DNA of 42,653 nt from a virus. Location: positions 1-42,653 of the IMG/VR virus record IMGVR_UViG_3300033149_002557. One strand, given 5' to 3'. This document shows, piece by piece, positions 2,318-42,405 of this stretch; the first letter of the stretch is position 1, and each line of letters opens with the position of its first letter. The notes beneath the pieces are model-generated. The model worked only from the letters and a program-made list of their open reading frames with translations. It was not told where the DNA came from and searched no databases. A program made the position numbers and the translations under genes.

Positions 2318-2797
2318 ATGACCAGAGGCAGGAAGAAAACCCCCAGTGCCCTGAACGAGTTGCGCGACAACCCGGGCAATCGCCGGCAGAACACGCGCGA
2401 GCCGAAGACCGAGCCGTGCCTGCCCGAGCCACCGGAGTACATCCAGGGCGACGTTCGCGCGGCGTGGAAGCGGATCGGTTCACTGGTGTTCGGGATGGGC
2501 GTGTTGAAGGCATCCGACGCGGTGGCGCTGGAGGTGGCGGCCGTGGCCTACGTGCAGTGGCGCGTGACGGCGCAGTGGGTGATCGACCATGCCCAGGCCG
2601 CCGAGCTGCAGAAGGACGTGAACGGCACGTTGCGGCGGCATCCGTTGGCCATCGCCCACAAGCAGAACACAACCGAACTGACACGGATACTCGCCGAATT
2701 TGGCATGACGCCGGTCACCCGAACGCGGCTGATGACCACCGAACCGCCGCATGAAGAGACGGAAGAAGAAAAACTGCTGAAGGTATACCGGGCATGA
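2318..2797 (+). CDS. terS: Terminase small subunit, P27 family
   Basis: 159-residue protein recognised by its N-terminal TRGRKKTPSALNELRDNPG, typical of P27-family small terminases, and by its place directly before the large subunit. Small terminases recognise phage DNA and regulate the packaging motor. I chose the ATG at 2318 because the conserved GRKK start follows it directly. In-frame upstream starts (ATG 2303, GTG 2249) would extend into the terminator region. The gene ends with an ATGA overlap with the large terminase. The acidic C-terminus (ETEEEKLLKV) may contact the large subunit. Confidence 0.88.
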   Translation: MTRGRKKTPSALNELRDNPGNRRQNTREPKTEPCLPEPPEYIQGDVRAAWKRIGSLVFGMGVLKASDAVALEVAAVAYVQWRVTAQWVIDHAQAAELQKDVNGTLRRHPLAIAHKQNTTELTRILAEFGMTPVTRTRLMTTEPPHEETEEEKLLKVYRA

Positions 2798-4449
2798 TCG
2801 CAACCGCATCCCACATCCCGAATGACTTGGTGGGCTATGATCCGGTCGCCACGGCGGGGAAGCTGGTGACCGTGGATACGGACAGGGGTATTCACTATTT
2901 CGACTCGGGGCTTTCATACCATGAGGGCGCGGCCGACCACGCGGTCCGGTTCATCGAGACGCTGTGCTGTCACGTCAAGGGGCGTTGGGCCGGCCAGCCG
3001 TTTCTGCTGGAGCCGTGGGAAGCGGCGTTCATCCGCACGCTATTCGGCTGGAAGCGCAAGAACCGCACCCGCCGTTACCGGATGGCCTACGTGGAGATCC
3101 CGCGCAAAAACGGCAAGTCACTGTTGACCGCGACGATTGGGGTGTATCTACTAATAGCCGACGGTGAGAAGGGCGGCGAGATTTACAGCGCCGCCACCAC
3201 GCGCGAGCAGGCCGGCATCGTGCACCGTATGGCGGCGGACATGATCAAGCACAACAAGCTGTTGTCGCAGCGGTGCGAAGACATCCCGTCCCGGAACCGC
3301 ATCATTCACCCGGAGAGCAACAGTTTTTACAAGGCGGTGCCGGCTGAAGCCGGAGCCCAGATGGGGTGGAATGCCCACGGCATTCTGTTCGACGAATTGC
3401 ACGAACAGAAAACCCGCGACTTGTGGGACGCGCTATTCACGTCGCGCGGAAGCCGCGAACAGCCACTGGCCGTGGCCATCACGACCGCCGGCAAGACCCG
3501 GCTCTCTCTGTGCGGCGAACAGCACGACTACGCCGAGAAGGTGCGCGACGGGATCATCGACGACACGTCGTTTCTGCCGGTGCTGTACTTCGCCGACGTG
3601 GACAAGGACTGGACCGACCCCGAGGTATGGAAGGAAGCCAATCCCAACTACGGAGTCAGTGTGTCGCATGAGTACCTGGCGGCAGAATGTAAGCGCGCCC
3701 AGGAAACACCCGGGTATGAAAACACGTTTCGCCGGCTGCACCTGAACCAGTGGGTCGAGCAGGACATTCGCTGGTTGAGCATGGAGAAGTGGGACGCCTG
3801 CGGTGGCGAACGCACCGACCTGGCGGGCCGCGAATGCTTCGCCGGCCTGGACCTGGCATCAACGATTGACGTCACGGCGCTGGTGCTGGTGTTCCCCGAC
3901 GACGATGGGGGTTATTCCCTATTGCCGCATTTCTGGATTCCGCGCGAAGGGGCGCGGGAACGGGAGCGCAAGGATCGCGTACCCTACGTCGAGTGGGCGC
4001 GACAAGGTTACCTGGAAATAGCCGGCGACAAGCGCACCGACTATGACGTGATCCGAAAGCGGATCAACGAATTGGGCCAGCGGTACAACATCCGCGAGAT
4101 CGGGGTCGACCCCTGGAACGCGACCCAACTCAGCCTGCAACTGGCCGGCGACGGCTTTGAGGTAGTTCACGTCCCGCAGAGCTTCCGGGAATTCACCACG
4201 CCCAGCAAGGAATTCGAGGCGCAGATAGTCAACGGCACGCTGCGTCATTTCAACCACCCGGTGCTGCGGTGGATGGCATCCAACGTGTCGGCCAAAGACG
4301 ATACGGCCGGTAACCTGATGCCCTGCAAAAAAAAGAGCTTTGAAAAGATCGACGGCATTGTGGCTGCGATCATGGGTATCGGCCGGGCGCTGGTGACGCC
4401 ACCGGCGCGCGAGTCGAAATACGAACGCGAAGGACTGTTGTCTTTTTAA
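2794..4449 (+). CDS. terL: Terminase large subunit
   Basis: 551-residue DNA-packaging ATPase/nuclease. The ATPase domain shows a Walker A-like PRKNGKS (residues 103-109) and a Walker B GILFDE (196-201). The RNase H-like nuclease domain begins at AGLDLASTID (350-359), where D353 is the likely first metal ligand. Length and order match HK97-type large terminases. It is translated from an ATGA overlap with the small subunit, which suggests coupled synthesis. The protein docks on the portal encoded two genes downstream. Confidence 0.95.
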   Translation: MIATASHIPNDLVGYDPVATAGKLVTVDTDRGIHYFDSGLSYHEGAADHAVRFIETLCCHVKGRWAGQPFLLEPWEAAFIRTLFGWKRKNRTRRYRMAYVEIPRKNGKSLLTATIGVYLLIADGEKGGEIYSAATTREQAGIVHRMAADMIKHNKLLSQRCEDIPSRNRIIHPESNSFYKAVPAEAGAQMGWNAHGILFDELHEQKTRDLWDALFTSRGSREQPLAVAITTAGKTRLSLCGEQHDYAEKVRDGIIDDTSFLPVLYFADVDKDWTDPEVWKEANPNYGVSVSHEYLAAECKRAQETPGYENTFRRLHLNQWVEQDIRWLSMEKWDACGGERTDLAGRECFAGLDLASTIDVTALVLVFPDDDGGYSLLPHFWIPREGARERERKDRVPYVEWARQGYLEIAGDKRTDYDVIRKRINELGQRYNIREIGVDPWNATQLSLQLAGDGFEVVHVPQSFREFTTPSKEFEAQIVNGTLRHFNHPVLRWMASNVSAKDDTAGNLMPCKKKSFEKIDGIVAAIMGIGRALVTPPARESKYEREGLLSF

Positions 4450-5034: not shown

Positions 5035-6747
5035 ATGTTCGGTACAATAACCGCGCTACCGCGGCGAGCGGCCGTCGCGGCCTGGCGCAAATTGTTTGGC
5101 GGCGCGCGACAGTCGCTCGGCTACGCCGGCGATTGGCTGGCGCACTTTGGCGACATGGTGTTCCGCACCGCGTCCGGAGTCAACGTCAACGAGAACACGG
5201 CGCTCAACTATTCGGCCGTGTGGGCGGCCACCCGGCTTATCAGCGAGACAGTTGCGCTCCTGCCGCTCAAGCTGCACCGCCGGCTGCCGGATGGCTCGAA
5301 GGCTGATGCGTTCGATCACCCTATCTACCGCCTGATTCACGACGCGCCGAATGACTACATGAGCGCATTCACCTGGCGGGCCACCATGACGGCGCATCTG
5401 CTGAACTGGGGTAATGCCTGGAGCGAGATCGTGCGCGGCGGCGGCGCGGTGCTGAGACTCAATCCGATTCACCCGTCGAATGTCGAACTTGATAAGGAAA
5501 GACCCCCGACAGGCGAATTCTTCAAGGTGCGCCGCGATAACGGCGAGGTTGTATCGATTCACGCCACCGGCCTGTTGCACTTGACCGGTCCATTGTCCGA
5601 CGACGGTATCATGGGCCGGGGCGTGATCCGGCAGGCGCGGGAATCGATCGGCATGGGCCTGGCAACCGAACAGTTCGGGGCGGCGTTCTTTTCATCCGGC
5701 GGCCGGCCACCGGGGGTATTGACCTACCCCGAGGAACTCAGCAAGGCAGCCAAGAAGCGGATGCGTAAGAGTTGGCGACAGGTATACGGCAAACCGGGCC
5801 AGCGAAAGATCGTCGTACTGGAAGAAGGCGTAACGTACACGCCGATCGGCATTCCGCCCGAAGACGCACAATTTCTGGAGACCCGGCAGCATAATATCAC
5901 GGAAATCGCGCGGTGGTACAACTTGCCGCCGCACAAGCTGGCCGAGTTGACGCACGCCACGTTCTCCAATATCGAGCATCAAGAGATCGAGTTTGTGCAA
6001 TCGCTGATGCCGTGGATGGCGCGTTGGGAGCAGGAGATATGGCGACAATTGTTGACTCCCGCCGAACAGAAAGACCTGTTCGCCAGGCATACCGTAGCCG
6101 GCCTGCTGCGCGGCGACTCGAAAGCCCGCGCCGAGTTCTATGAGATCATGTCTCGCATCGGGGTGTTCTCTCCCAACGATATTCTGGCGCTCGAAGAGTA
6201 CAACGGTATCGGCGAAGACGGCGACCATCACTTCGTACAGATGAACATGATCCCGCTCGACCGGCTGGGCGAGATCGAATTCAAGAGCAAGGCCGGCACG
6301 GGTGAAAAAACGCCAGGTGGAGCCAACAATAGTGACGGCGACTTGCGAGCCGAGGCCAACCGGGAACTGCTGACCGATGCGCTACGGCGCTGCATTCATG
6401 GCGAGGCGGTGGCGGCGCGGCGGGCCTGCAAGCACTCCAGTCAATGGCTCGATTGGTTGGACGAATACTACGACCGCCGCGTCGGGCAAATCGCCACGGC
6501 GTTGCGCCCGGTGCTACATGTAATCGCCCCGGACAAGGGTTCGACGGCGGACATTATGGCCGCGCGGCACGTCGAGCAGTCGAAACGACAATTGTTGCGA
6601 CTGTACGATACGGAGACCGTCGACAACTTCCAATCCGCGGTCGAGGCGTGCGTGAATGATTGGGAGCAATACCGGGCACCTTTGTCGGCCGAATCGATAT
6701 TGCGGCACGTCGAAAAGGGAGAACTGTGCGATGGCGACTCAACTTGA
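5035..6747 (+). CDS. Portal protein, HK97 family
   Basis: 570-residue portal protein forming the dodecameric DNA gate at one capsid vertex. The family is recognised by VNENTALNYSAVWAATRLIS near the N-terminus, LPLKLHRR, the segment YMSAFTWRATMTAHLLNWGN, and the later ITEIARWYNLPPHKL. The C-terminal part (from about residue 430) is longer than in the shortest portals, is charged, and may be a clip or tail extension. Order after terL is canonical. The stop lies 17 bp inside the next gene. Confidence 0.95.
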   Translation: MFGTITALPRRAAVAAWRKLFGGARQSLGYAGDWLAHFGDMVFRTASGVNVNENTALNYSAVWAATRLISETVALLPLKLHRRLPDGSKADAFDHPIYRLIHDAPNDYMSAFTWRATMTAHLLNWGNAWSEIVRGGGAVLRLNPIHPSNVELDKERPPTGEFFKVRRDNGEVVSIHATGLLHLTGPLSDDGIMGRGVIRQARESIGMGLATEQFGAAFFSSGGRPPGVLTYPEELSKAAKKRMRKSWRQVYGKPGQRKIVVLEEGVTYTPIGIPPEDAQFLETRQHNITEIARWYNLPPHKLAELTHATFSNIEHQEIEFVQSLMPWMARWEQEIWRQLLTPAEQKDLFARHTVAGLLRGDSKARAEFYEIMSRIGVFSPNDILALEEYNGIGEDGDHHFVQMNMIPLDRLGEIEFKSKAGTGEKTPGGANNSDGDLRAEANRELLTDALRRCIHGEAVAARRACKHSSQWLDWLDEYYDRRVGQIATALRPVLHVIAPDKGSTADIMAARHVEQSKRQLLRLYDTETVDNFQSAVEACVNDWEQYRAPLSAESILRHVEKGELCDGDST

Positions 6748-6946: not shown

Positions 6947-7771
6947 ATGTCAACAGGCACAACAGTATGGCTGCGGGCGCAGCTCATTCGATCAGCGAAA
7001 CCTTTGGGGGTCGACCGCGAGGCGAAGATGATTCGCGGCATGGTAATGGCGCAGGAAGGTCCGTTCAAATCGGAAGGTCGCGGCGAGTTTGATGCGGCCG
7101 CAATCCGGGATATCGTGCGGCTGGCCAGAGAGAAACCGGCCGGTCTCAAAAGCCACTTCGCGCACCCCACGTTGTCGGACGACGGGCTCGGCAAGCTGCT
7201 GGGCCGGGTCAAGAACGTGCGAACCGACACGCTGGAACGGGACGGCAACAAACTGACCATCGCTCGCGGCGACCTGCACTTTCTGGACTCGGCTTTCGAG
7301 ACGCCGTTCGGCAATTTGGCCGGATATGTCATGGACTTGACGGAAGAGGACTCCGACGGGCTGAGTAGCAGCCTGGTGCTCCAGATCGTGGAAGAGTATC
7401 GCATAGACAAGAAAGGCCGGCCGAAGGTCGATGACGATGGCGAACCGCTTCCGCCGTTGTGGCGGCCAATCGCGCTGCACGGCTCGGACATCGTGGACAG
7501 CGGCGATGCCGTGGACGGGCTGTTGGGGGCCCAGCTTGACTTCGGTGGGCTGCCGGACGGCGTGGTTCGGCAGGGCGCGGCGCTGCTGGACAAGCAGTTT
7601 GCCGGTCGGTCGCGCGACGAGATTCGGCGACATTGCCTGGCCTGGTTGGGCCGGTATCTGTCTTTGCGATTCGGTGATGATGATCCGGCGCCGAAGCCGC
7701 CGGAGCAACCTCGGCGTCCGACAGGGGCCGAAATGCGGGCGATACGAGAAAGCAGGAGCAAACGACAATGA
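6947..7771 (+). CDS. Putative prohead protease
   Basis: 274-residue protein in the usual place of the prohead maturation protease, between portal and capsid. Candidate catalytic residues are His70 or His73 in LKSHFAHP, followed by a GKLLGRV strand, and a serine in LSSSLV (residues 139-144). These fit the His...Ser pattern of caudoviral prohead serine proteases. The C-terminus is Pro- and Arg-rich and could bind scaffold. The match is by pattern and position only. The gene overlaps the next one at ATGA. Confidence 0.6.
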   Translation: MSTGTTVWLRAQLIRSAKPLGVDREAKMIRGMVMAQEGPFKSEGRGEFDAAAIRDIVRLAREKPAGLKSHFAHPTLSDDGLGKLLGRVKNVRTDTLERDGNKLTIARGDLHFLDSAFETPFGNLAGYVMDLTEEDSDGLSSSLVLQIVEEYRIDKKGRPKVDDDGEPLPPLWRPIALHGSDIVDSGDAVDGLLGAQLDFGGLPDGVVRQGAALLDKQFAGRSRDEIRRHCLAWLGRYLSLRFGDDDPAPKPPEQPRRPTGAEMRAIRESRSKRQ

Positions 7772-8144: not shown

Positions 8145-9494
8145 ATGAATAAGCTGGCTGAACTCGAACAGAATCGCGCCGCGCTCGGCACGCAACAGGC
8201 GGCGATTGAGGATGCCGCCGAGCAGAATGACGGCGGGGTGCTCACGGACGAGCAGCTTGCCGAATGGGAAAAGCTCGACGAGCAGGTCAAGGCGCTGACC
8301 GCCGAAATCGACGGCATCAAGGCGTCCCGCGAGGCCATTCGCCAGGCCCGCGAACAGCGAGCGGAATTTTCAAAACCGACCAGCCCGACCGGCTCGACGA
8401 CCGGGCGGATTGGCCAGCCGCGACTGGCGGCCGAAAACGACCCCAAGCGCGGATTCAAATCGTCGCAACAGTTCTTTCTGGCGGTCATGCAGGCCGCGCA
8501 AGGCAGCCGGCCAGACGAACGGTTGCTCGGGCTGGGACTACGGCGTAGTGAAATGCTGACCGCCGGCAGCGACGAGGCCGGCACCTATAGCGGCCCGTAT
8601 GGTGGTTTTTTCGTGCCCGAGGGTTTTTTGAGCCAGTTTCTGACCACGCCCAGTGAGGGCGACCCGATCGCCGGCCGCACGACCATCATCCCCATGGCCA
8701 CGCCGACAGTGACGCTGCCGGCCCGAACGGACAAGGACCACTCGACCAGTGTATCGGGCGGCTTGACCGTGCGGCGGCGCATGGAGACCGAATCGGTTAC
8801 GGCGACCCGAATGGAAATCGAACAGGTCAAGCTTAGTTCGTTTGCCTTGTTCGGCACCAGCTACGCCACTGAGGAATTGATTTCCGATTCGGCAATCAGT
8901 TTCGCGGCGCTGCTTCAACAGGGCTTCGCCGACGAATTCCGGGCAGCGATTCTCAACGAGCGGATCAACGGCTCGGGCATCGGTTGCATGGAAGGTGTCA
9001 CCAACTCGCCAGCCAAGATCGAAGTCGCCGCAGAAGACAACCAGGTCGCGGACACGATCGTCTACGAGAACATCTACAAGATGTTCGCGCGGTGCTGGCA
9101 GCCGGGCAATGCGATCTGGCTGGCCAATCACAACACGATTCCGCAACTGGTGATCCTCAACCAGTCGGTCGGCACGGCCGGCGTGCCGGTGTGGATGCCG
9201 TCGGCGGTCGGCGGCGTGCCGAACACGCTGTTCGGTTTGCCGGTCTTCTTCACCGAGTTCTGCGCCACGCTCGGCGATGCCGGCGATATCATTCTCTGCA
9301 ACTGGTCACAGTACCTGGAGGCCACTTATCAGACTCCGCAGTCGGCGTCCAGTATTCACGTGCGGTTCGAGAATCACGAGCAGACGTTCAAGTTCTTCAT
9401 GCGCAACGACGGTCGTGGGTGGTGGCGTAGTGCGTTGACCCCCAAGAACGGCGATACACTCAGTCCGTTCGTCACGTTGGCCGAAAGGGCGTAA
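8145..9494 (+). CDS. Major capsid protein, HK97 fold
   Basis: 449-residue major capsid protein. Residues 1 to about 85 are a charged coiled coil (NKLAELEQNRAAL; QVKALTAEIDGIKAS) that acts as an internal scaffold (delta domain) and is normally removed by the prohead protease. The mature fold probably starts near residue 137, where MLTAGSDEAGTYSGPYGG precedes the FFVPEGF strand. The C-terminal FFMRNDGRGWWRSALTPKNGD ending is typical. An isolated RBS (GAGCGGAGGG) and a structured 5' leader suggest high expression. Confidence 0.95.
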   Translation: MNKLAELEQNRAALGTQQAAIEDAAEQNDGGVLTDEQLAEWEKLDEQVKALTAEIDGIKASREAIRQAREQRAEFSKPTSPTGSTTGRIGQPRLAAENDPKRGFKSSQQFFLAVMQAAQGSRPDERLLGLGLRRSEMLTAGSDEAGTYSGPYGGFFVPEGFLSQFLTTPSEGDPIAGRTTIIPMATPTVTLPARTDKDHSTSVSGGLTVRRRMETESVTATRMEIEQVKLSSFALFGTSYATEELISDSAISFAALLQQGFADEFRAAILNERINGSGIGCMEGVTNSPAKIEVAAEDNQVADTIVYENIYKMFARCWQPGNAIWLANHNTIPQLVILNQSVGTAGVPVWMPSAVGGVPNTLFGLPVFFTEFCATLGDAGDIILCNWSQYLEATYQTPQSASSIHVRFENHEQTFKFFMRNDGRGWWRSALTPKNGDTLSPFVTLAERA

Positions 9495-14518: not shown

Positions 14519-16441
14519 ATGGCACAGGGATCACGCACAATTCGATCGCTGACCGTGGTGCTCGTCGCGCGGACCAAGCAATACATCGACGGGCTGAAGA
14601 AGGGTGAACGCGCGACGAGCAAGTTTGGGCGGCAAGCCAAAAAGACCAGCACGACGGTTGGCGCGCTGAACAAATCGTTTGCCAGTTTCTCGAAAACGCT
14701 GATCGGGCTGGCGGCGGCGGGCGGGGGTATCGCTGCCCTGACCCGCACGATGCAAACCCTGGACCGGATCGGAAAGACGGCCGACAAGTTGGGGGTGACG
14801 ACCGAGAGCCTGATAGCCTTACGGCACGCGGCCGAATTGACGGGCGTCGCGTCGAACACGGTCGATATGGCCTTGCAAAGAATGACTCGCCGGATGGCTG
14901 AGGCAGCGAAAGGAACCGGCGAGGCAAGGAACGCGATCGCCGAGTTGGGGCTCGATGCACAACGACTGGCCACTATGGGGCCCGTGGCGGCGTTTGGCGA
15001 AGTTGCCGAGGCCATGAAGAGGGTGGAAAACCAGGCCGACAAGGTACGGCTGTCGTTCAAACTGTTTGACTCCGAGGGTGTGGCGATGGTAAACACCCTA
15101 CGGCTCGGCAAGAAGGGGCTGGCTGATGCGGCGGCCGAAACCAGAAACCTCGGCATGGCGCTGGATCGGGCGGCCATCAAGAAAATCGAAGAGGCCAATG
15201 AGGCGATGATGCGGCTGAAGATGAGCTTCGCCGGATTGGGCGCAACGATCGCAACGGATGTGGTCGGACCGTTGAAGTCGATTATCGACCTGCTGACCAG
15301 GCTGAGCAAGTACAAGGGTGTTCTCACCGCCGGTGCAGGCGTGCTTGTAGGTGGTGCACTAGCCGGCAAGACAGGCGCATTGATCGCTATCAGCGTTGGC
15401 GTAATCAATATGATATACCACGCGGCCGAAGGATACTTTGACGAGGTGTACAAGAAGTGGGCGAAGAAAAAAACCTGGACACCAAAAAAAGGAAAGGCAC
15501 CGGTTGTGGGCGACGCCAACGACCCGGTATTGGCAAGGCTACAAGAGAAACTCCATGACATCGAGCACAGAAAGATCGACAAGGCAAAGAAAGCCTTGCG
15601 CCTCGCTATCGAGGAATATCGTGCAGCAAACCAGAAAAAGAAAGGCCTGCGCGGCTTTATCGAGAAATATCATCCACTAGAAATGTATCCCCAGGTTCTC
15701 GTCAACCGCATTAAAACCGCGGCGCAACAATCCCTCGAATTGCGGCAAGCGGAACACGATAAGGCGTATCGAGAGCGCCGAGCCGTGAAAGCCGACATAC
15801 GAGGGCGCAGAGAACAGTTGGCTCACGATCGAGCCGCAGTGCGCGCCATGAAGGCCGCGCGGCTCGCGTCTGTCGGCAGGGCGATTTCGAGTGCCATGTC
15901 GTCCATTCTTTCGCCAACACAAACTGCCGGAGGCAAAGCAATATCCGGGGGCAATTGGCTGAGCGCGCAGATAAGCAAAGGGGTCGTTGCGGCCGAGAAT
16001 CAAATAGTTAAAACCATTGCAATCGCGGCAAAACGAACGGCGGCAACAGAACAGGCCAAGGATATTTTCGAGGCCATGCGAACACCGCTCGAACGAATCA
16101 AGAAAGACTACGAGGACATCCAGCGATTACACAAGATTGGAGCATTCGCGGGAGCGGGCGGCGAGGAAACGTACCGCCGGGCGATCGCCGACATCATCCA
16201 GCGAGCGCGCGGCTTGTTGCCGGAAAAAGAGCGGGCGACCTATCAACGCCAGCGACCGGGCCTCGTTCAGGCCGGCACGATGGCGGCATGGGAGGCAATC
16301 CAGCGCTCTTCGCCGGCATTAACCGAACAGCAGAAGCAGACCAAAGAGTTGAAAAAGCAGACCGAGCTGCAACGGGGGACCAACGAATTTCTGGAAAAGA
16401 TCGCCGATGAAACAGGCGAAGTAGCGGAAGTGGGGCTTTAG
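14519..16441 (+). CDS. Tape measure protein
   Basis: 640-residue tape measure protein, the internal ruler of the tail. Features: an N-terminal motif LIGLAAAGGGIAALTRTMQTLDRIGKTADKLGVTTESL typical of tape measures; long alpha-helical stretches; a hydrophobic segment (VLTAGAGVLVGGALAGKTGALIAISVGVINMI, about 275-306); then a charged coiled coil. Length suggests a tail near 0.1 micrometre if about 0.15 nm per residue holds. ATG 14519 follows the shifted chaperone frame stop at 14516. Confidence 0.92.
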   Translation: MAQGSRTIRSLTVVLVARTKQYIDGLKKGERATSKFGRQAKKTSTTVGALNKSFASFSKTLIGLAAAGGGIAALTRTMQTLDRIGKTADKLGVTTESLIALRHAAELTGVASNTVDMALQRMTRRMAEAAKGTGEARNAIAELGLDAQRLATMGPVAAFGEVAEAMKRVENQADKVRLSFKLFDSEGVAMVNTLRLGKKGLADAAAETRNLGMALDRAAIKKIEEANEAMMRLKMSFAGLGATIATDVVGPLKSIIDLLTRLSKYKGVLTAGAGVLVGGALAGKTGALIAISVGVINMIYHAAEGYFDEVYKKWAKKKTWTPKKGKAPVVGDANDPVLARLQEKLHDIEHRKIDKAKKALRLAIEEYRAANQKKKGLRGFIEKYHPLEMYPQVLVNRIKTAAQQSLELRQAEHDKAYRERRAVKADIRGRREQLAHDRAAVRAMKAARLASVGRAISSAMSSILSPTQTAGGKAISGGNWLSAQISKGVVAAENQIVKTIAIAAKRTAATEQAKDIFEAMRTPLERIKKDYEDIQRLHKIGAFAGAGGEETYRRAIADIIQRARGLLPEKERATYQRQRPGLVQAGTMAAWEAIQRSSPALTEQQKQTKELKKQTELQRGTNEFLEKIADETGEVAEVGL

Positions 16442-21739: not shown

Positions 21740-22612
21740 TCACAATGTGGGTACTTGCGGCCGAACGCCATAGCTGATTGTCGGGTCGATGTATGCGCGT
21801 TCCGCCAGCCCCGGCGAGCGGTGCCCCAGGTGCGCCTGGCCGCCGCCGGGGTTGTCGCGCACGTAGTACGAGACGCTCGACCGTCGCAACCACTTGATGG
21901 TGCCGGTGTTGATCCCAGCGGCGTCACGGATGATCTTGATCTCGTCGTAGATGTACTCCCGTCGATATGGCCACGGGAACAGCAATTCCCGGTGCGGCGG
22001 GAATGTGGCCCGAATCGCTTCCAGCGTCGCCGGCCACAACGGCGGCGTGACATGCACGTGACCGGTCTTGTGCTGTGCTACTACTATCGTGCCGTCAGCT
22101 TGCACGTCTTCGGTCGTCAATCGGAGCAAATCGCCCAACCGCAAGCCGGTATCGTAGGCGGTGCGGATGAACGCGCTCCACCATCGACTGCGGCGAATCC
22201 CGCTGCGATAATAGCATCCCGGTCGCGTCTCCGCCGCCGCCAGCAACCGGCGTATCTGTTCGATCGTCCAACATCGCGGCACCGGCCGAGCGACGCGAAT
22301 TCGTCGCACGCGGCGGGTGTTCGGTTCCCGGTCATGGTAGCCGATCGTCGCGGCGTAGCGCCATGCGGCGAGTAATGCAGTCCGCTTGTTTTTGATCGTG
22401 CGCGGCGCTTGCTCCGTTGCTTCCAGGCTTACCAGCCAACGATTGATGGTCGCTTCATCGAGCGCCGCAATCGGCACCCGCCGGCCGGCCCACCGCTCGA
22501 ACAGCCGAGCGGCAACGACAAGCTGCTCCAGGGCATCGGGGCAAATGCCCCGCTCAAGACCGTAGACGTGCGTGACAAACTCTGTCAGTGAAAGCTGTTG
22601 CTGCGCAATCAT
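21740..22612 (-). CDS. int: Tyrosine integrase
   Basis: 290-residue tyrosine recombinase. It has an N-terminal core-binding domain and a catalytic domain with Arg158 (TGLRLGDLLRL), Lys182 (HKTGH), Arg243 (KWLRRSS), His264 (LGHRS) and the nucleophile Tyr274 (AERAYID). The usual HxxR first residue is Lys240, an unusual but tolerated variation. It inserts the phage at the tRNA-Leu site encoded just upstream. The reverse-strand promoter is at 22707-22735; GGAG precedes the ATG. Confidence 0.93.
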   Translation of the reverse strand: MIAQQQLSLTEFVTHVYGLERGICPDALEQLVVAARLFERWAGRRVPIAALDEATINRWLVSLEATEQAPRTIKNKRTALLAAWRYAATIGYHDREPNTRRVRRIRVARPVPRCWTIEQIRRLLAAAETRPGCYYRSGIRRSRWWSAFIRTAYDTGLRLGDLLRLTTEDVQADGTIVVAQHKTGHVHVTPPLWPATLEAIRATFPPHRELLFPWPYRREYIYDEIKIIRDAAGINTGTIKWLRRSSVSYYVRDNPGGGQAHLGHRSPGLAERAYIDPTISYGVRPQVPTL

Positions 22613-27058: not shown

Positions 27059-27967
27059 ATGAATATCGAACCACACACATTTACGCACGATGGCGACCGT
27101 GTGCTCGGCTTGCGGCGCTGCAATGCCGACGGCACCTCGTACCGTGGTTTTGCCTGGCCTCGCGAGGGTCCGGTGGTCGCCGACAACTGGGAACCAACGG
27201 ATTGTTGCGGGCATGGTCTGCACTGCTGGCCGTGGGGCTTGGGTCTGGGCGAGGGCTGCGACTTCGATCTGATAGAGGATCGGTGGCAGGTCCTGGAAAT
27301 CGACCCTCGCACGCCGATCGTGGGCAACCTGGAGGGCGGCTGGAAAATGAAATGCCGCGAATGCGTGGTTCGCACGTTCGACAATTTTTCCGATGCCTGG
27401 GATGTAATCGCGGCGGGACAGGCAGCGCTGATTGCATTGATGGCGGCCGGCGGGAAGAACAAACTTGTCGCAACGGAGGTGGGGAGCAAACTTGTCGCAA
27501 CGGGCGCGGACAGCAGACTTGTCGCAGCGGGCGCGGGGAGCACGCTTGTTGCGGTCGGCGCGGACAGCGAACTTGTGGCGGCTGGCACGGACAGCAGACT
27601 TATCGCGACCAGCAAACGGAGCAAGCTGGCCGCGACCGGCCTGGAGTCGTGTTGCGTGGCGGTCGGCGCGGAAAGCAAACTTGTGGCGGCGGACGTGGCG
27701 AGCAAACTTGTCGCAGCGGGCGCGGACAGCACGCTTGCCGTGGTCGGCAGGTACAGTAAGCTGACCGCAATCGGCGCGGAGTCGTGTTGCATGGCGGCAG
27801 GCGTGGGGAGCAAGGTGCGAGTCGGTGACGGTGGGGCGTTTTGCCTGCGCGGCAACGACCCCGCCGGCAACCCGCGACTTGTGGTGGGCCACGTCGGCGA
27901 AAACAGCATCGTGGCCAATACGTGGTACGAACTCGACGAGAACCTGCAAATCGTTCCGGTAGAATAG
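27059..27967 (+). CDS. Protein with decapeptide beta-solenoid repeats
   Basis: 302-residue protein. The N-terminal domain (GLRRCNADGTSYRGFAWPREGPVVADNWEP...CCGHGLHCWPWGLGLG) is a compact Cys/Gly-rich module, followed from about residue 135 to 260 by some twelve degenerate ten-residue repeats of the type SKLVATGADS and SRLVAAGAGS, encoded by roughly 30-bp imperfect DNA repeats. Such repeats form a small parallel beta solenoid. The C-terminus (LVVGHVGENSIVANTWYELDE) closes the fold. It starts 4 bp after the preceding gene. Confidence 0.75.
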   Translation: MNIEPHTFTHDGDRVLGLRRCNADGTSYRGFAWPREGPVVADNWEPTDCCGHGLHCWPWGLGLGEGCDFDLIEDRWQVLEIDPRTPIVGNLEGGWKMKCRECVVRTFDNFSDAWDVIAAGQAALIALMAAGGKNKLVATEVGSKLVATGADSRLVAAGAGSTLVAVGADSELVAAGTDSRLIATSKRSKLAATGLESCCVAVGAESKLVAADVASKLVAAGADSTLAVVGRYSKLTAIGAESCCMAAGVGSKVRVGDGGAFCLRGNDPAGNPRLVVGHVGENSIVANTWYELDENLQIVPVE

Positions 27968-33551: not shown

Positions 33552-33824
33552 GGCAGGGCAAGGCGCGGCAAGGCTTGGCAGGCGAGGCGCGGCGAGGCCT
33601 GGCGGGGCAAGGCCTGGCAAGGCGCGGCAGGCGCGGCAGGCGAGGCTTGGCCAGGCCGGGCATGGCCGGGCGGGGTGAGGCACGGCTGTCATGGCAAGGC
33701 GAGGCTTGGCCTGGCGAGGCTCGGCGCGGCGAGGCATGGCGTGGCAGGCAAGGCTTGGCGAGGCTTGGCCAGGCCGGGCGAGGCCTGGCGAGGCCAGGCG
33801 CGGCAAGGCACGGCGGGCACGGTG
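33552..33824 (+). repeat. GGCNN pentanucleotide array 1
   Basis: About 55 units of GGC plus two variable bases, with a dominant 5-bp period (occasionally 4 bp), between the stop at 33540 and the gene at 33855. The variable dinucleotides (AA, GC, TT, GA, CT, CG and others) do not follow an obvious order. Long open frames in it are byproducts of the 5-bp period. A landmark GGCACGGCTGTC is shared with array 2. Confidence 0.95.
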
Positions 33825-33854: not shown

Positions 33855-34391
33855 ATGATGTACGGAACACTCACCAAACAGCAGCAAGCGGAACTGGCTG
33901 CATTGAAGAAGAAACGCAAGACGATTCTGCCAGCGGAGGTAGTTGACTTCGCCCGCGATCCAAACACCGCATTGCACTCCCGGTTCACCTGGGAGGACAG
34001 TGAGGCCGCCGAGAAGTGGCGGCTACATGAAGCGCGAAACATATTGCGCGTGGCCGTGTTCGTGCCCAAGGGCAGCACGAAGCCAATACGCGCGTACGTG
34101 TCGCTGCGCGACGATCGTTCGGCGGCGGGCGGTTATCGATCCGTGGTGGACGTGCTGTCTGACGCGGAATTGCGCGACAAGATGTTGCGGGAAGCGCTGG
34201 AAGAGTTTCGCCTCTTTCAGCAGAAATATCGGGTGCTGTCGGAACTGGCGCCGCTATTCGAGGCGGCGGCTCGCGTGCGAAAGCAAAAGGCCCGGGCAAA
34301 GGCCAGTGATAACGGGCACCGGCGGCGAGCCGGAAACCTGCGAGGGCGAAAACCCGCGAAGACACGAGCAAAGGCAACGGTAAACGCCTAG
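33855..34391 (+). CDS. Conserved hypothetical protein bracketed by arrays
   Basis: 178-residue protein. Family-like segments: EVVDFARDPNTALHSRFTWEDSEAAEKWRLHEARNILRVAVFVPKG and YRSVVDVLSDAELRDKMLREALEEF, which resemble a conserved phage protein of unknown function. The C-terminus is very basic (KQKARAKASDNGHRRRAGNLRGRKPAKTRAKATV) and probably binds nucleic acid. AAAGGATTTATG is the RBS. It is bracketed by the two GGCNN arrays. Confidence 0.75.
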   Translation: MMYGTLTKQQQAELAALKKKRKTILPAEVVDFARDPNTALHSRFTWEDSEAAEKWRLHEARNILRVAVFVPKGSTKPIRAYVSLRDDRSAAGGYRSVVDVLSDAELRDKMLREALEEFRLFQQKYRVLSELAPLFEAAARVRKQKARAKASDNGHRRRAGNLRGRKPAKTRAKATVNA

Positions 34392-34408
34392 CACTTGCTT
34401 TTGCTCAC

Positions 34409-34587
34409 GGCAGGCACGGCGAGGCTAGGCCAGGCAAGGCGGGGCTTGGCTCGGCCGGGCAAGGCTTGGCAGGCGAGGCGAGGCGGGGCATGGCATGGCA
34501 CGGCTGGGCTTGGCGTGGACGGCACGGCTGTCGTGGTTAGGCACGGCTGGGCGTGGCAAGGCACGGCGAGGCAAGGTGTGGTACGGA
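34409..34587 (+). repeat. GGCNN pentanucleotide array 2
   Basis: About 33 GGCNN units in the same orientation as array 1, between the genes at 34391 and 34624. It shares the landmark GGCACGGCTGTC with array 1. Some units are degenerate (GGTTA, GGAC). Confidence 0.95.
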
Positions 34588-36829: not shown

Positions 36830-38263
36830 ATGATTCTTGCCTCCGCACATGGCATCGAGCCCACGGCCTCGCCCACCGAGAATTGTCGGCTGCTGCAAGC
36901 ATTTCTGGACGCGGGGCAGCACGTTATTCTCGACACGCCGGGGACGTATCGCGTCGATCGCGGCCTGACGGTCGAGCGAGGGCGCCCCTTCCGCCTGACC
37001 GGCGGCGTGGGTTGCGGGTCCAATAACGAGGCCGGCGGGACGGTGCTCCGGCTGGTCGACGGTGCCGAGGCCGACGCCATACTGACCATCGGCGCATCGG
37101 GCCCGATCGCCAACACGACCCCCGTAGTGGTCGAGCATATCGACTTCCGAGCCGACGGACAGCTGCGAACCGTGGACGGCGTGGTCATTCGCCAGGGCAC
37201 GCAAGCCCAAATCGCTCATTGCCGAGCCATCGGGCTGCGAACCGGATTCAAGGCCGCCTACAGCGCTCGGCTGATTGGGCCGACTTTCTCGCATGATTAC
37301 ACCTACGGCTGCGAAGTTGGGTTTGAACTCGACGGCATGGGCGGGCAGTCGGTCAACACGACATGTGGGGCCAGGATCGAATCGTGTGAATCGGATACCC
37401 CCCCGGATTGCAACCGGATCGGGTTCTGGATTCACGATTACGGCCGGGGTTTCCACCTCGATTCGTGCGTTGCCCACGCCGCCGGCGAAGCCTGTCTGCT
37501 GGTCGAGCATAGTCGGGGGGTCATCACCAACAGCTACTTCGAGCGAATTTCGCAGAGCGGGACCACCGCCCGGTCGGCCGTCTTTCATCGTGCAGCCGTG
37601 GAATTTATCGGCGGCGTGATGAACTATCCGGAGGTCGATGAGGATAGTCAGGTATGGGTCACGCAACAGACCAGCTTGGGATCGTGGCACTTTACCCGGC
37701 CGACGGTGCTGGGCCGGCAATCGGATTCGCTCGACGAATCGGATCATATCTGGGGACCGCCGGTCGGACCGTACCGCAAACAGAAACGCGGCTCCGCTGG
37801 GGGATTCACTTCACAATGCGGCTCGCTGTGGAAAGACCCCCAAGGCATTGTGTGGCGCGACCATCATGGCGGCACGCAAAAATACCAGCAGTGGATGCCG
37901 GCCGACGGTCGAGCACATATCCCGATCACCGATCAGACGAAAGTCTGTCAGCCCCGCAAGCCGTGGACCGGCGATACGGCCTGGTACGTCAAGCGGCCGT
38001 GGTTGCTTCGCAAAATCACCCCGCTGTCCATCGAAGCGGACATCGCGCCGTACAAATTGCTCATCGGCACACCGGCGTTGCCGGATTTGTATGGTGTCTT
38101 CGAGGTGGCTGAATCCGGCGAAATGGTTTGGACGCCGGGCGATATGCCTGGTCTGAACATGCGAACGGTCGATTCCGCCACCTGGATGATAAGTTGCGAC
38201 ACAACGCAGCACCCGGTCAAGAGCGGTAAGCTGGTCGTGATGTTCGAGGGGGTATTGGTATGA
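36830..38263 (+). CDS. Tailspike-like right-handed beta-helix protein
   Basis: 477-residue protein. The N-terminal segment ENCRLLQAFLDAGQHVILDTPGTYRVDRGLTVERGRPFRLTGGVG is typical of pectin/pectate-lyase-like tailspikes, followed by beta-helix rungs (VVVEHIDFRADGQLRT, IAHCRAIGLRTGF, FHLDSCVAHAAGEACLLVEHSRGVITNSYFERIS). A separate C-terminal part (WHFTRPTVLGRQSDSLDE to the end) follows. It probably binds or cuts host surface polysaccharide. Late gene, with ATGA overlap to the next. Confidence 0.8.
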   Translation: MILASAHGIEPTASPTENCRLLQAFLDAGQHVILDTPGTYRVDRGLTVERGRPFRLTGGVGCGSNNEAGGTVLRLVDGAEADAILTIGASGPIANTTPVVVEHIDFRADGQLRTVDGVVIRQGTQAQIAHCRAIGLRTGFKAAYSARLIGPTFSHDYTYGCEVGFELDGMGGQSVNTTCGARIESCESDTPPDCNRIGFWIHDYGRGFHLDSCVAHAAGEACLLVEHSRGVITNSYFERISQSGTTARSAVFHRAAVEFIGGVMNYPEVDEDSQVWVTQQTSLGSWHFTRPTVLGRQSDSLDESDHIWGPPVGPYRKQKRGSAGGFTSQCGSLWKDPQGIVWRDHHGGTQKYQQWMPADGRAHIPITDQTKVCQPRKPWTGDTAWYVKRPWLLRKITPLSIEADIAPYKLLIGTPALPDLYGVFEVAESGEMVWTPGDMPGLNMRTVDSATWMISCDTTQHPVKSGKLVVMFEGVLV

Positions 38264-38493
38264 ATACACTATATGCCCTGTTGATCGTGCTGACGGGATT
38301 CGTGTATGTTACGGTGTCGCTGTGGGCCGGCATCGTGGTTGCCGAAGAGCGGCGACGACAGCACCCCCGTGAAACCGTGACGCCGGTGTTATGGGGTATA
38401 TTTACTATTGCGACCTGGCCGGTGTTGGTGGCGGCCGCGCTGGTGTGTTATGCGTGGGAATACGCTTCCACTATATGGAGGAAATCGCCATGA
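38260..38493 (+). CDS. Two-helix membrane protein (holin candidate)
   Basis: 77-residue protein with two membrane helices (TLYALLIVLTGFVYVTVSLWAGIVV and LWGIFTIATWPVLVAAALVCYAW) separated by a short charged loop. This fits a small holin or phage membrane protein in the lysis area. It overlaps both neighbours at ATGA. The better holin match by pattern is at 40759-40980. Confidence 0.6.
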   Translation: MNTLYALLIVLTGFVYVTVSLWAGIVVAEERRRQHPRETVTPVLWGIFTIATWPVLVAAALVCYAWEYASTIWRKSP

Positions 38494-38759
38494 AGTCCAA
38501 AACGGGTCTGAGTAGAAAAGAGCGTAAGGCGATGGGCCTGACGTTCGCGGGTATTGTGAAGCGACTGAAAAGACTGAAGAAGGCCGGGGCGCTGAAGGAC
38601 GCCGCGACGACCGAAGAGATCGCCGCGCTAGTCCTGAACCAGGCCGTTGCGGATCATCCGAAAGTCGCCGCCAATCTGTCGATCGACATGGATGCGCTGC
38701 TGGCGTGGCTGGAGGTCATCGTCAAGATCATCATGCTGCTGGCGCCGTTGTTCTTGTAA
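38490..38759 (+). CDS. Small protein with C-terminal membrane helix
   Basis: 89-residue protein with a basic N-terminus (KSKTGLSRKERKAMGLTFAGIVKRLKRLKKAG), a middle helix and a C-terminal membrane segment (LLAWLEVIVKIIMLLAPLFL). Starts in an ATGA overlap with the two-helix protein. May be a membrane-linked lysis or tail accessory; no family recognised. Confidence 0.6.
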   Translation: MKSKTGLSRKERKAMGLTFAGIVKRLKRLKKAGALKDAATTEEIAALVLNQAVADHPKVAANLSIDMDALLAWLEVIVKIIMLLAPLFL

Positions 38760-38794: not shown

Positions 38795-39058
38795 ATGTCT
38801 GAAAACCCTAAAAAGCAATCGTCTGTGGAACAAGAAATGGTTCAGTTGGAGGCCAGCATTGAAGCCTGTGAAGCAAGTGTTCGCACACTTGAGCCGGCTT
38901 TAGCAAGTGTGCTCTGTCCGCCCGACCCGGAAACTTGCAATGAGAAAGTTGACGAGCCGGTGAGAGTTCCGTTGGCTCAAGCGATCCATTCGGCAAGTGA
39001 ACGTGTTACTTGCCTAACCTTGACAATCAATAGTGTGCTTAAGCGATTGGAATTATAG
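38795..39058 (+). CDS. Small coiled-coil protein
   Basis: 87-residue, mainly helical protein (VEQEMVQLEASIEACEASVRTLEPALASV; LAQAIHSASERVTCLTLTINSVLKRLEL) that should form a coiled coil. The 5' region repeats TGTTCTTGTAA twice (38760-38780). RBS is TATAAGGAAAAAC. Possibly a tail or membrane accessory; function unknown. Confidence 0.6.
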   Translation: MSENPKKQSSVEQEMVQLEASIEACEASVRTLEPALASVLCPPDPETCNEKVDEPVRVPLAQAIHSASERVTCLTLTINSVLKRLEL

Positions 39059-39067
39059 GATAAAGTC

Positions 39068-39910
39068 GTGTACCATAAAGACAACATCGGTTGGGGCCTG
39101 GTCGTGGCGGGCGTCGCCGGGATCGTCCTGTCGTTGCTGACTGCGATTGTCGGCTGGGGGATCGAGATCAGCCCGCCGCCGAAGGACGTCGAGGTCGGCG
39201 AGGACATTGAACTTCGGATCGCGGGCATCAAGATCAGCCCGCCGCCGGAGGACGTGGAAGTCGGCGAGGACATCGAACTTCGGATTACGGGTATCGACTA
39301 CAAGGAAATTCAGGGCGCCAAGCTGATCTATTACCCGCGCGAGAAAGTCAAGGTCCGCGACACGCTGTCCTGGCAACTCGTGCCGCGAATCGACTTTCGG
39401 GCCATGCGAGCGGGCAGCTATTTCGTCGCCGTGGCGGCTGAGCAGGACGGTAAGCTAGTGTACGACGAGGTGGTCGTGGTCGTGGGAGGCGGCCCGGGCC
39501 CGGACCCTCCCGATCCGACGCCCGAGCCCGACCCACCCTTGCCGCTCCCCGGCGATTTGTGGGCGGTGACGATCTACGAGACTGGCCAACGAACAGGCCC
39601 GAGCGGCGAGAGGTTGAAACTGTTACATCTGTACCTCGACAAGGCGGAGGCGGCTGGCGAGATTCAGGCCAGGTACTTAGATCAAGACACCCAAGACGCA
39701 ACTACGGGCAATACCCCCGAGTGGTTTCGCCCTGTGCTCCAGGCGGTACGTGACGGCCAGGTCAAGCTACCGGCGGTAGTTATCGCCGTGCGCAATCCGG
39801 ATACTGGTATCTTTACCCCCGTTGACACAACTCACCTGGACAACGCGGCGGTGGTCATGCAGTGGATCAAGACACACATCGACGCACGAAAGGGGAGGCG
39901 ACGAAGATGA
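39068..39910 (+). CDS. Membrane-anchored protein with 66-bp tandem repeat
   Basis: 280-residue protein starting at GTG 39068. An N-terminal membrane anchor (GWGLVVAGVAGIVLSLLTAIVGWGI) is followed by two 22-residue tandem repeats (ISPPPKDVEVGEDIELRI type; DNA about 39169-39300), a beta domain, a Pro-rich linker (GPGPDPPDPTPEPDPPLPL) and a C-terminal domain. Outside the cell it could act in adsorption or lysis. It is next to the papain-like protease gene (ATGA overlap). RBS near the GTG is weak. Confidence 0.65.
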   Translation: MYHKDNIGWGLVVAGVAGIVLSLLTAIVGWGIEISPPPKDVEVGEDIELRIAGIKISPPPEDVEVGEDIELRITGIDYKEIQGAKLIYYPREKVKVRDTLSWQLVPRIDFRAMRAGSYFVAVAAEQDGKLVYDEVVVVVGGGPGPDPPDPTPEPDPPLPLPGDLWAVTIYETGQRTGPSGERLKLLHLYLDKAEAAGEIQARYLDQDTQDATTGNTPEWFRPVLQAVRDGQVKLPAVVIAVRNPDTGIFTPVDTTHLDNAAVVMQWIKTHIDARKGRRRR

Positions 39911-40737
39911 GCGATCTCATTTTTCCACCGGGTCGCGTGCCGGGGTGTTTGCCCCGCCAGTCGGTGTTCGGCGAGTTGGCCGGCTGTCCCGCACTAGCGG
40001 ATCGGATTAAAGTCATTCCGCAAAGCGAATGGCAATCGCTAATTGACGGTGGTGCGGGCGTAAAGGAGTACAGCAAAGACACTCTGGATCAAGATGCCGT
40101 AGGAAGCTGCGCCTCGGAAGCTGGTGGGCAAATTCTAATGACCTGTCGGGGCTGGGAGAACCAGGCGAGGATAGTAATTAACCCTTGGAGTATTTACCCC
40201 TTCGTCAACGGCGGCCACGACGGCGGCTCCACGATCGAGGACAACCTGGAACATATCCGCGACGTGGGCGCGCTGCCCATGGAGATTTGGCCGCGCTCCA
40301 AGGGCTGGAACACCAAGCCGCCGGATGAGTTGCTCGACAAGGTGGCGGTTCATTTCCGGTTGCACGAGTTCTATGACATTGGCTCCATAGAAGAGGCCGG
40401 GACAGCACTCGTCGAAAACTACGCGGTCCAGTTCGGCTGGGACGGGCATTCGGTTATGGCCACGTCGCTGAAGACGCCGACTGTTCTCGACTATCACAAC
40501 TCGTGGGGCGTGGGTTGGGGTAACAACGGGTTTGGAGAACTCGCGCTGCGCAGGGTGCATTTCGGCTACGGCATGTACGCCGCGCGGTCGGTCGTCGATG
40601 GCAGCGAGTACGTGGCAAGGCGTGAGGAGTACCTGGCACTAGCACGTCGGTTGTGCGAGAAGTTTCCGGACTACACGCCACAAGAAATCGCCGCATCGGC
40701 CAGAGCCTCGCGCATGGCGCATGGCTTGCCGGTGTGA
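39907..40737 (+). CDS. Papain-like cysteine protease
   Basis: 276-residue protein with a papain-family (C1A-like) active site: Gln62 and Cys68 in DQDAVGSCAS, His181 in WDGHSVMA, and Asn198 in DYHNSWGVGWGNNGFGEL. The order and spacing match the family, so it is likely an active protease. It sits in the lysis-like region, between an anchored protein and a holin-like protein, where an endolysin is expected. It might attack host surface or cell-wall proteins or mature tail proteins. Confidence 0.8.
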   Translation: MSDLIFPPGRVPGCLPRQSVFGELAGCPALADRIKVIPQSEWQSLIDGGAGVKEYSKDTLDQDAVGSCASEAGGQILMTCRGWENQARIVINPWSIYPFVNGGHDGGSTIEDNLEHIRDVGALPMEIWPRSKGWNTKPPDELLDKVAVHFRLHEFYDIGSIEEAGTALVENYAVQFGWDGHSVMATSLKTPTVLDYHNSWGVGWGNNGFGELALRRVHFGYGMYAARSVVDGSEYVARREEYLALARRLCEKFPDYTPQEIAASARASRMAHGLPV

Positions 40738-40758: not shown

Positions 40759-40980
40759 ATGAAACCGTTTTCAAAACCGTTTTGGGAGAGCAAGACATTT
40801 TGGGTGGGGTTCGCACACTTCCTTATTGCCGTGTTGCTGGCCGCGATCGGCGAAGCAAAGGTACAACCGTACCTGGAACAATATCCGACCGTGCTGGCCT
40901 GGGTCGTGGGCGCCGAAGGAATCCTGATGATTATCCTGCGGATCATCACGGACCAGAAACTGCTGTGGCGCAAACAATGA
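40759..40980 (+). CDS. Holin-like protein
   Basis: 73-residue protein with two membrane helices (TFWVGFAHFLIAVLLAAIGEA and YPTVLAWVVGAEGILMIILRI) and basic ends. The pattern WESKTFWVGFAHFLIAVLL...QYPTVLAWVVG...ILRIITDQ resembles phage holins. Preceded by AAAGGGTTAAAAC. Together with the papain-like protease it could form the lysis pair. Confidence 0.75.
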   Translation: MKPFSKPFWESKTFWVGFAHFLIAVLLAAIGEAKVQPYLEQYPTVLAWVVGAEGILMIILRIITDQKLLWRKQ

Positions 40981-41622: not shown

Positions 41623-42405
41623 ATGATGACCGCACTACCACTCAGCGGCGCGGGACACGCGGCCGGCGGCGGCTTTCGGCATGACACCGTGGCCGGTCTG
41701 AAGTTGTGGATCTGTGCCGGCTTGGTGAAGAACCAAAGCGGCTATGCTTCGCAGGTCTTTGATAAGTCGGGCAATGGAAATGATCTGGTACAAGCGACAC
41801 CGGATTACCGACCGGCAATCGTGGCCAGCGCAATCAACGGTCAGCCGGTATTGCGGTTTGACGGCGACGATGAGTTTATGTGGCGAGCCGGTGACTTGGG
41901 GCTTTTCACTGGCGACGACGTGAAGCTCACGTCGTTCGTGGTGTATCAGCACGCGACGGGGAGTTTGGCCGGGAATGAGATTTTGTGGTCGGCTAACAAC
42001 GACACGACATACCATCCACGGCACTCCGTGGAAGTGGACGACGACGAAAAGTATGTACACTACAAGCGGCCCACGTATCTAGCCGCTAGTCAGGTGTTGA
42101 GCGATGCCGCCCAGGTGGATACCGATCCGCACATTCGCGTGGACTTGCACCATGGCACGACCGTCGAAATGTTCCGCGATGGCGGCACGAAGGTCAACAC
42201 CACGACGGCCCAGGACACGGCCGAAATGCCGACGATTAAGCGGTTTTGTGTTGCCGCCCGGCACGAAAATGTGACGGCCTACTACTGGAACGGCGACATC
42301 GCGGAGGTGTTGATCTATGCGGGTGACAAATCGGCAGCCGACATCAACCTCGTCGGTGCGTACCTGGAGGCGAAGTACGGCATCACTTGGACGAATATCA
42401 CATGA
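41623..42405 (+). CDS. LamG/concanavalin-like tail protein
   Basis: 260-residue protein with a LamG/concanavalin A-like fold: GLKLWICAGLVKNQSGYASQVFDKSGNGNDLVQAT, GQPVLRFDGDDEFMW, FVVYQHATGSLAGNEILWSA, then VAARHENVTAYYWNGDIAEVLIYAGD. Such domains bind sugars; a receptor-binding tail role is likely. ATGATG start; its end overlaps the HNH gene at ATGA. Confidence 0.75.
   Translation: MMTALPLSGAGHAAGGGFRHDTVAGLKLWICAGLVKNQSGYASQVFDKSGNGNDLVQATPDYRPAIVASAINGQPVLRFDGDDEFMWRAGDLGLFTGDDVKLTSFVVYQHATGSLAGNEILWSANNDTTYHPRHSVEVDDDEKYVHYKRPTYLAASQVLSDAAQVDTDPHIRVDLHHGTTVEMFRDGGTKVNTTTAQDTAEMPTIKRFCVAARHENVTAYYWNGDIAEVLIYAGDKSAADINLVGAYLEAKYGITWTNIT

Follow-up and report, generated by a model that had tools for sequence, protein, structure and literature searches.

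At positions 39907-40737 lies a gene for a 276-aa cysteine peptidase with a predicted papain fold, and just upstream of it a same-strand gene for a predicted membrane-anchored, thioredoxin-fold protein, in the siphovirus-like genome of IMG/VR record IMGVR_UViG_3300033149_002557. The window, by which we mean the whole stretch of 42,653 bases analysed, also encodes RecT and further replication genes, and its relevant features are as follows.

2794-4449: TerL
5035-6747: portal
6947-7771: protein encoded between the portal and capsid genes
8145-9494: capsid
14519-16441: tape measure
21740-22612, minus strand: tyrosine integrase
36830-38263: beta-helix protein, flanking the module region
38260-38493, plus strand: small membrane protein, 77 aa, with a LydA-type holin Pfam match below the cut-off (E 0.022)
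38490-38759, plus strand: small protein of 89 aa carrying a hydrophobic helix at the C-terminus
38795-39058, plus strand: small protein, predicted soluble, between the membrane-protein genes and the partner gene
39068-39910, plus strand: partner protein with a TM helix, Pro-rich linker and thioredoxin-fold domain (structure prediction, HMM)
39907-40737, plus strand: 276-aa cysteine peptidase of the C1A type, xylellain-like, with a papain fold (structure prediction, alignment, profile search)
40759-40980, plus strand: small hydrophobic holin-like protein, 73 aa, with a weak match to PHROG 297 holin (E 0.03)
41623-42405: LamG-like/PHROG virion protein, flanking the module region

A comparison of the record ends detected no overlap, and an HNH gene is cut by the right end, indicating that the record is not closed. 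A 15.6-kb contig from another IMG/VR dataset (L003) matches the 5' third of the window phage, and the portals of the two are 100% identical. The window also holds a 302-aa protein (27059-27967) that consists mostly of SKLVAAGADS-like repeats, with a 27-bp unit in about 10 copies, and is possibly the DUF7666-like Pfam match of the window. Two GC-rich arrays of short repeats of the GGCAAGGCGA type (33557-33815 and 34406-34567) flank the gene at 33855-34391.

We then collected homologues of the peptidase. In the phage collection, a single-sequence search brought up one distant match, with 23% identity, in the 595-kb genome LR756511.1, and the viral contig collection gave no matches either in single-sequence pattern searches with the papain and partner proteins or in a search with a two-row alignment. 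We then encoded the stretch Y..(I/V)NGG.D.G, seen in the window protein and the LR756511.1 protein, as a degenerate DNA pattern and scanned the viral collection with it. The scan yielded 83 stretches, nearly 60 of which encode papain homologues, and 33 of these entered the alignment. Since only the DNA pattern worked, the homologue counts are lower bounds and are biased to the motif of the pattern.

The ATG start of the peptidase gene is preceded by a GGGGAGG Shine-Dalgarno-like stretch and shares a 4-nt overlap (ATGA) with the stop of the upstream gene. A chance open reading frame at this place was ruled out, since an HMM of the homologues built without the window recovered the 276-aa protein at 2.6e-27. 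The protein had no match in Pfam or NCBIfam at E up to 1, and a single-sequence search matched PDB papains only at E 0.1-0.3, through the NSWG motif; among the homologues, L060 scored 27.4 bits and L002 18.0 bits against the PF00112 cut-off of 20.7 bits. The active-site Cys, His, Asn and Gln named in the first-pass annotation are indeed all present at the papain positions (Gln62, Cys68, His181 and Asn198), with the catalytic-region motifs DQDAVGSC, WDGHSV and NSWGVGWGNNG. In the alignment of diverse homologues, Gln62, Cys68 and His181 are each conserved in all 33 sequences and Asn198 in 28, and the four residues lie outside the DNA pattern by which these sequences were gathered. Because the Asn is missing in the other five, full peptidase activity is not certain in every member. 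The 276-aa protein has neither a signal peptide nor a secretory pre-region.

Structure prediction, which had been proposed as a check of the papain-type assignment, gave a confident papain fold (AlphaFold2, pLDDT 89.5, pTM 0.86). The best solved match was xylellain (3ois), with a VIA-align Z of 23.3, an rmsd of 2.2 Å over 210 residues and a Foldseek E of 8e-10, and Z values against papain and cathepsins were about 18-21; the model thus has the papain two-domain fold. Pro-papain and procathepsins matched at Z 19-21 with about 30 more residues aligned than in the mature enzymes, and the N-terminal approximately 40 residues of the model superpose on the pro-peptide segments that fill the active cleft in these proenzymes. 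This pro-segment-like N-terminus of the model suggests a latent enzyme. The helical C-terminal tail of 45 aa is peculiar to the window protein.

The first-pass annotation had described the upstream neighbour as membrane-anchored. Indeed, a TM helix was found at residues 7-29, but the earlier description had overlooked both the thioredoxin-fold domain at residues approximately 159-278 and the conserved pairing with the papain gene. All of the best 50 structural matches of the domain (residues 159-277) are thioredoxin-like, with Z 7.6-9.4; the pLDDT is 61.7 for the whole model and about 80 within the domain, and a domain HMM built without the window recovered 39068-39910 at 6e-7. A partner-type gene lies directly upstream of the papain gene, on the same strand, at all 43 loci with an intact upstream flank, which represent 38 distinct partner sequences, and the two genes overlap by 1-8 nt in 24 of the 43 pairs. 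An N-terminal hydrophobic segment is present in 42 of the 43 partners, and a Pro-rich linker is usual. None of the 43 contains a CxxC motif, and the window partner has no cysteine at all, so that the partner is not a redox thioredoxin. The partner HMM also matched beside phage-type loci outside its training set (L124, L125, L130, L140, L141 and L154), and gave no match beside about 60 other C1 matches. Furthermore, at L088 a single open frame encodes the anchor, the linker and both the thioredoxin-like and the papain domain. The papain gene and 39068-39910 thus constitute a conserved two-gene module. A second candidate fusion, G001:C149 (L130/L152), was set aside, as its long frame is probably just an alternative frame that happens to be open across the partner gene. 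Within the window partner gene, a 66-bp tandem duplication repeating ISPPPKDVEVGEDIELRIAGI (39157-39285) looks recent.

Thioredoxins of the CxxC type also occur around the module. An exported one, scoring over the Pfam cut-off, follows the papain gene in L031, L076 and L155, and in L060, L043 and L065 the papain protein itself carries a CxxC thioredoxin-like domain as a C-terminal fusion. Plausibly, such thioredoxins would maintain the catalytic cysteine in its reduced state outside the cytoplasm.

Next, we investigated the distribution of the module in cellular genomes. The pattern scan of 84,980 prokaryote species detected three phage-type loci with the partner, one each in the genomes of a Gemmataceae species, another member of the Planctomycetota and a Thermoguttaceae species, and a family-model search limited to Planctomycetota added two further genomes with a partnered copy; all of the partnered cellular copies were found in Planctomycetota genomes. 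In the Halanaerobium phylum (388 genomes) and another control phylum (232 genomes), C1 matches were obtained, with no partner at the fetched loci. In the tree, the phage-type members fall on one side of a 100/100 branch, apart from the secreted cellular C1A peptidases (500-1800 aa, many phyla), which were accordingly rejected as close kin, as they form a separate clade and have no partner. The window protein groups, at 100/99, with the protein of a 19-kb viral contig (44% identity) and with the copies of two of the cellular genomes (G211 and G333). The restriction of partnered cellular copies to Planctomycetota and this grouping indicate that the host of the window phage is very probably a planctomycete, as the first-pass annotation had suggested.

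The genomic position of the module is also conserved. TerL lies at most a few kb downstream of it in four Planctomycetota genomes with prophage-like surroundings (G002, G003, G211 and G333) and in the viral contigs G398, G407 and G408, as well as in G430 if that contig is circular. In G408, whose TerL matches that of the window at 1.7e-75, the order is as in the window, with small membrane proteins, partner, papain, membrane protein, HNH, TerS and TerL. In the distant portal relatives L004 and L005, no module was seen, and these contigs may not cover the lysis regions.

Small TM proteins are enriched around the module, occurring within 2.5 kb of it in 9 of 26 cases versus 3 of 68 elsewhere (p 0.0004), although 2 of the 9 are partner genes. 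By eye, small proteins resembling that of 38490-38759 lie near the module in many relatives. The gene at 40759-40980, earlier called holin-like, does encode a small membrane protein. In G398, the closest relative, a homologue of it (4.1e-5) is encoded a short way downstream of the papain gene, and the holin part of the claim has this homologue and the weak PHROG 297 match in its favour. A search for homologues beside holins in other phages had been proposed as a check: the small membrane proteins are there, but the holin-family matches near the module are weak (E 0.01-0.03).

We also searched for a classical endolysin. None of the peptidoglycan-hydrolase families was detected among the 53 window proteins (Pfam, 25 of the 27 matched families listed), in agreement with the previous observation that no muramidase, amidase or transglycosylase gene is visible, but this agreement extends to a record that is not closed, and a lysin gene could lie in its missing part. 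Amidase_2, Phage_lysozyme, M15_4, SLT, M23 and Amidase_3 were absent from the 39 module-carrying IMG/VR records, including the window; such records are often partial, and unfamiliar lysins could escape a scan of six families. In a control set, Amidase_2 was found in 1 of 27 unrelated viral records. Since the records may be fragments, lysins may be missed and Amidase_2 is rare in the controls, the absence is weak evidence, and we rejected it as proof, Amidase_2 being missing from 26 of the 27 control records too. The 595-kb huge phage with the module has one M23 peptidase gene elsewhere in its genome.

On the grounds of position, partner and the absence of a recognised endolysin, lysis or exit is the best reading of the locus, and we give about even chances to the proposal that the gene pair 39068-39910/39907-40737 serves planctomycete phages as a late module for lysis or exit. 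The role in lysis or exit suggested in the first-pass annotation thus gains from the placement of the cassette upstream of the terminase, the nearby membrane proteins and the absence of the six lysin families, but the protease activity itself is only predicted. The rationale given there, a protein-rich host envelope in which a protease could serve, is incomplete, since planctomycetes possess peptidoglycan (PMC4432640) and a protein-only wall is thus not the reason. In the mechanism that we propose for lysis or exit, the peptidase would build up in the cytoplasm in a latent form resembling a zymogen, with its N-terminal segment in the active cleft as in pro-papain, until the holin-like proteins open the inner membrane and allow it to reach the periplasm. 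There it would dock on the anchored thioredoxin-fold partner, while the exported CxxC thioredoxin encoded in the same operon in some phages would keep its active-site cysteine reduced. The peptidase would then cut envelope polypeptides, either wall or membrane proteins or, equally well, the stem peptides of peptidoglycan, and this cleavage would replace a classical endolysin. More tentatively, a membrane-tethered papain-type protease, in place of a muramidase, amidase or transglycosylase, might be the envelope breaker shared by phages of planctomycetes as different as 33-kb siphovirus-like and 595-kb huge ones, with thioredoxin-fold proteins placing it and, in some of the phages, holding it in a reduced state outside the cytoplasm.

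A narrower form of the lysis reading, whose confidence overlaps with it, is that the papain-fold enzyme is itself a peptidoglycan endopeptidase, i.e. a clan CA endolysin from C1A rather than from CHAP or NlpC/P60, which would cut the stem peptides of the planctomycete wall. The presence of peptidoglycan in these hosts, the lack of any other recognisable wall hydrolase and a viral C1A-like protein in BFVD named 'Peptidoglycan binding-like' (A0A6J5MXS7) favour this idea, but no peptidoglycan-binding domain was recognised in the window protein, the anchored partner does not have a fold known to bind cell walls, and C1A enzymes are known as protein-cleaving enzymes; we consider it somewhat unlikely. 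The TM segment fused to the papain domain in L088, which indicates that the enzyme there is probably membrane-tethered and outward-facing, would also suit a host-takeover or superinfection factor, in which the partner displays the protease at the surface, while the phage infects or persists as a lysogen, to trim host receptors or other surface proteins, apart from lysis. The small exported Cys-rich or thioredoxin genes that follow the papain gene in several phages point in the same direction. However, the late slot upstream of the terminase is fixed across phages of 33-595 kb and no substitute lysis gene is recognisable, which together argue for a core late function, and a surface factor is thus an unlikely explanation.

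Since the beta-helix gene (36830-38263) and the LamG-like virion-type gene (41623-42405) flank the region, a structural or entry role fits as well, with the enzyme acting as a virion-associated or tail-fibre-processing protease for entry or for the maturation of neighbouring tail or decoration proteins. Nevertheless, a partner with a membrane anchor poorly suits an enzyme of virion maturation, the genes retained most frequently beside the papain gene encode the partner and small membrane proteins rather than fibres, and the portal-capsid slot usual for a prohead protease is occupied by 6947-7771, so that we regard this role as quite improbable. A prohead protease in particular was rejected, since its usual slot is filled and the papain gene sits among membrane-protein genes towards the opposite end.

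Returning to lysis or exit, we compared the module with known systems. Lambda-type holin-endolysin cassettes likewise lie just upstream of the terminase and beside small membrane proteins, but the enzyme of the module belongs to the C1A peptidases and not to the known peptidoglycan hydrolases, and the anchored thioredoxin-fold protein has no counterpart in those cassettes. The C-terminal domain of the partner aligns with thioredoxin-like chains only (Z up to 9.4), and differs from thioredoxin (PF00085) in the missing CxxC, the membrane anchor and the Pro-rich linker. With papain and the cathepsins (C1A, PF00112), the peptidase shares Gln, Cys, His, Asn and the two-domain fold, and the homologue L060 exceeds the Pfam cut-off, whereas the window protein has no Pfam match and no secretory pre-region. 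Xylellain (Xylella fastidiosa C1A, PDB 3ois) has the same fold and is also short, and the match takes in the N-terminal segment, at 19% identity. According to a published survey (PMC10380794), xylellain-type C1A peptidases have been acquired by Myoviridae and Siphoviridae; the short bacterial C1A (xylellain-type) peptidases so reported in Caudoviricetes are of the same enzyme class as the window protein, so that this class is already known in phages. What sets the present family apart is its constant, anchored partner of thioredoxin fold, together with NGGxDxG signatures, a fixed place among the late genes and Planctomycetota hosts, and we found no published description of any of these features.

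In the papers searched, we found no description of the paired module, of its planctomycete restriction or of its place beside the terminase. Nor was any report on phage exit from Planctomycetota found in the literature covered, which mostly excludes subscription journals and preprints, and such exit seems to be unstudied. The two-gene module, conserved in very different planctomycete phages, is thus a concrete and testable exit candidate, and should it prove to be lytic, lysis led by a protease would represent a new way for phages to leave their hosts. Whatever its function, the module is useful as a marker tying viral contigs to planctomycete hosts.

Several further features were noted at the homologous loci. 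In L052 (5923-7836, minus strand), an intein lies directly before the catalytic Cys of the papain homologue (SS/CFPAGTRIRM...VHN/CTGQ), a placement as expected of inteins in important active sites. At the huge-phage-type locus L002 (9151-11727), the module is followed by a gene for an exported protein with CxxCH haem-binding-like motifs and a weak cytochrome c match, and similar CxxCH-protein genes adjoin the module in L069 and L052. In many phages, the gene after the papain gene encodes a small exported protein that bears CPxGxCP motifs and is rich in Arg at its C-terminus (L006:4150-4401, L087:3854-4471 and L019:2894-3538, and also downstream of the papain gene in L084). Finally, in L053 (1111-2415, minus strand), the papain ORF runs on in frame into a downstream helical 'KYGPEVLSTI...KKFGPNVLDFLL' protein, which is encoded by its own gene in the relatives of L053.
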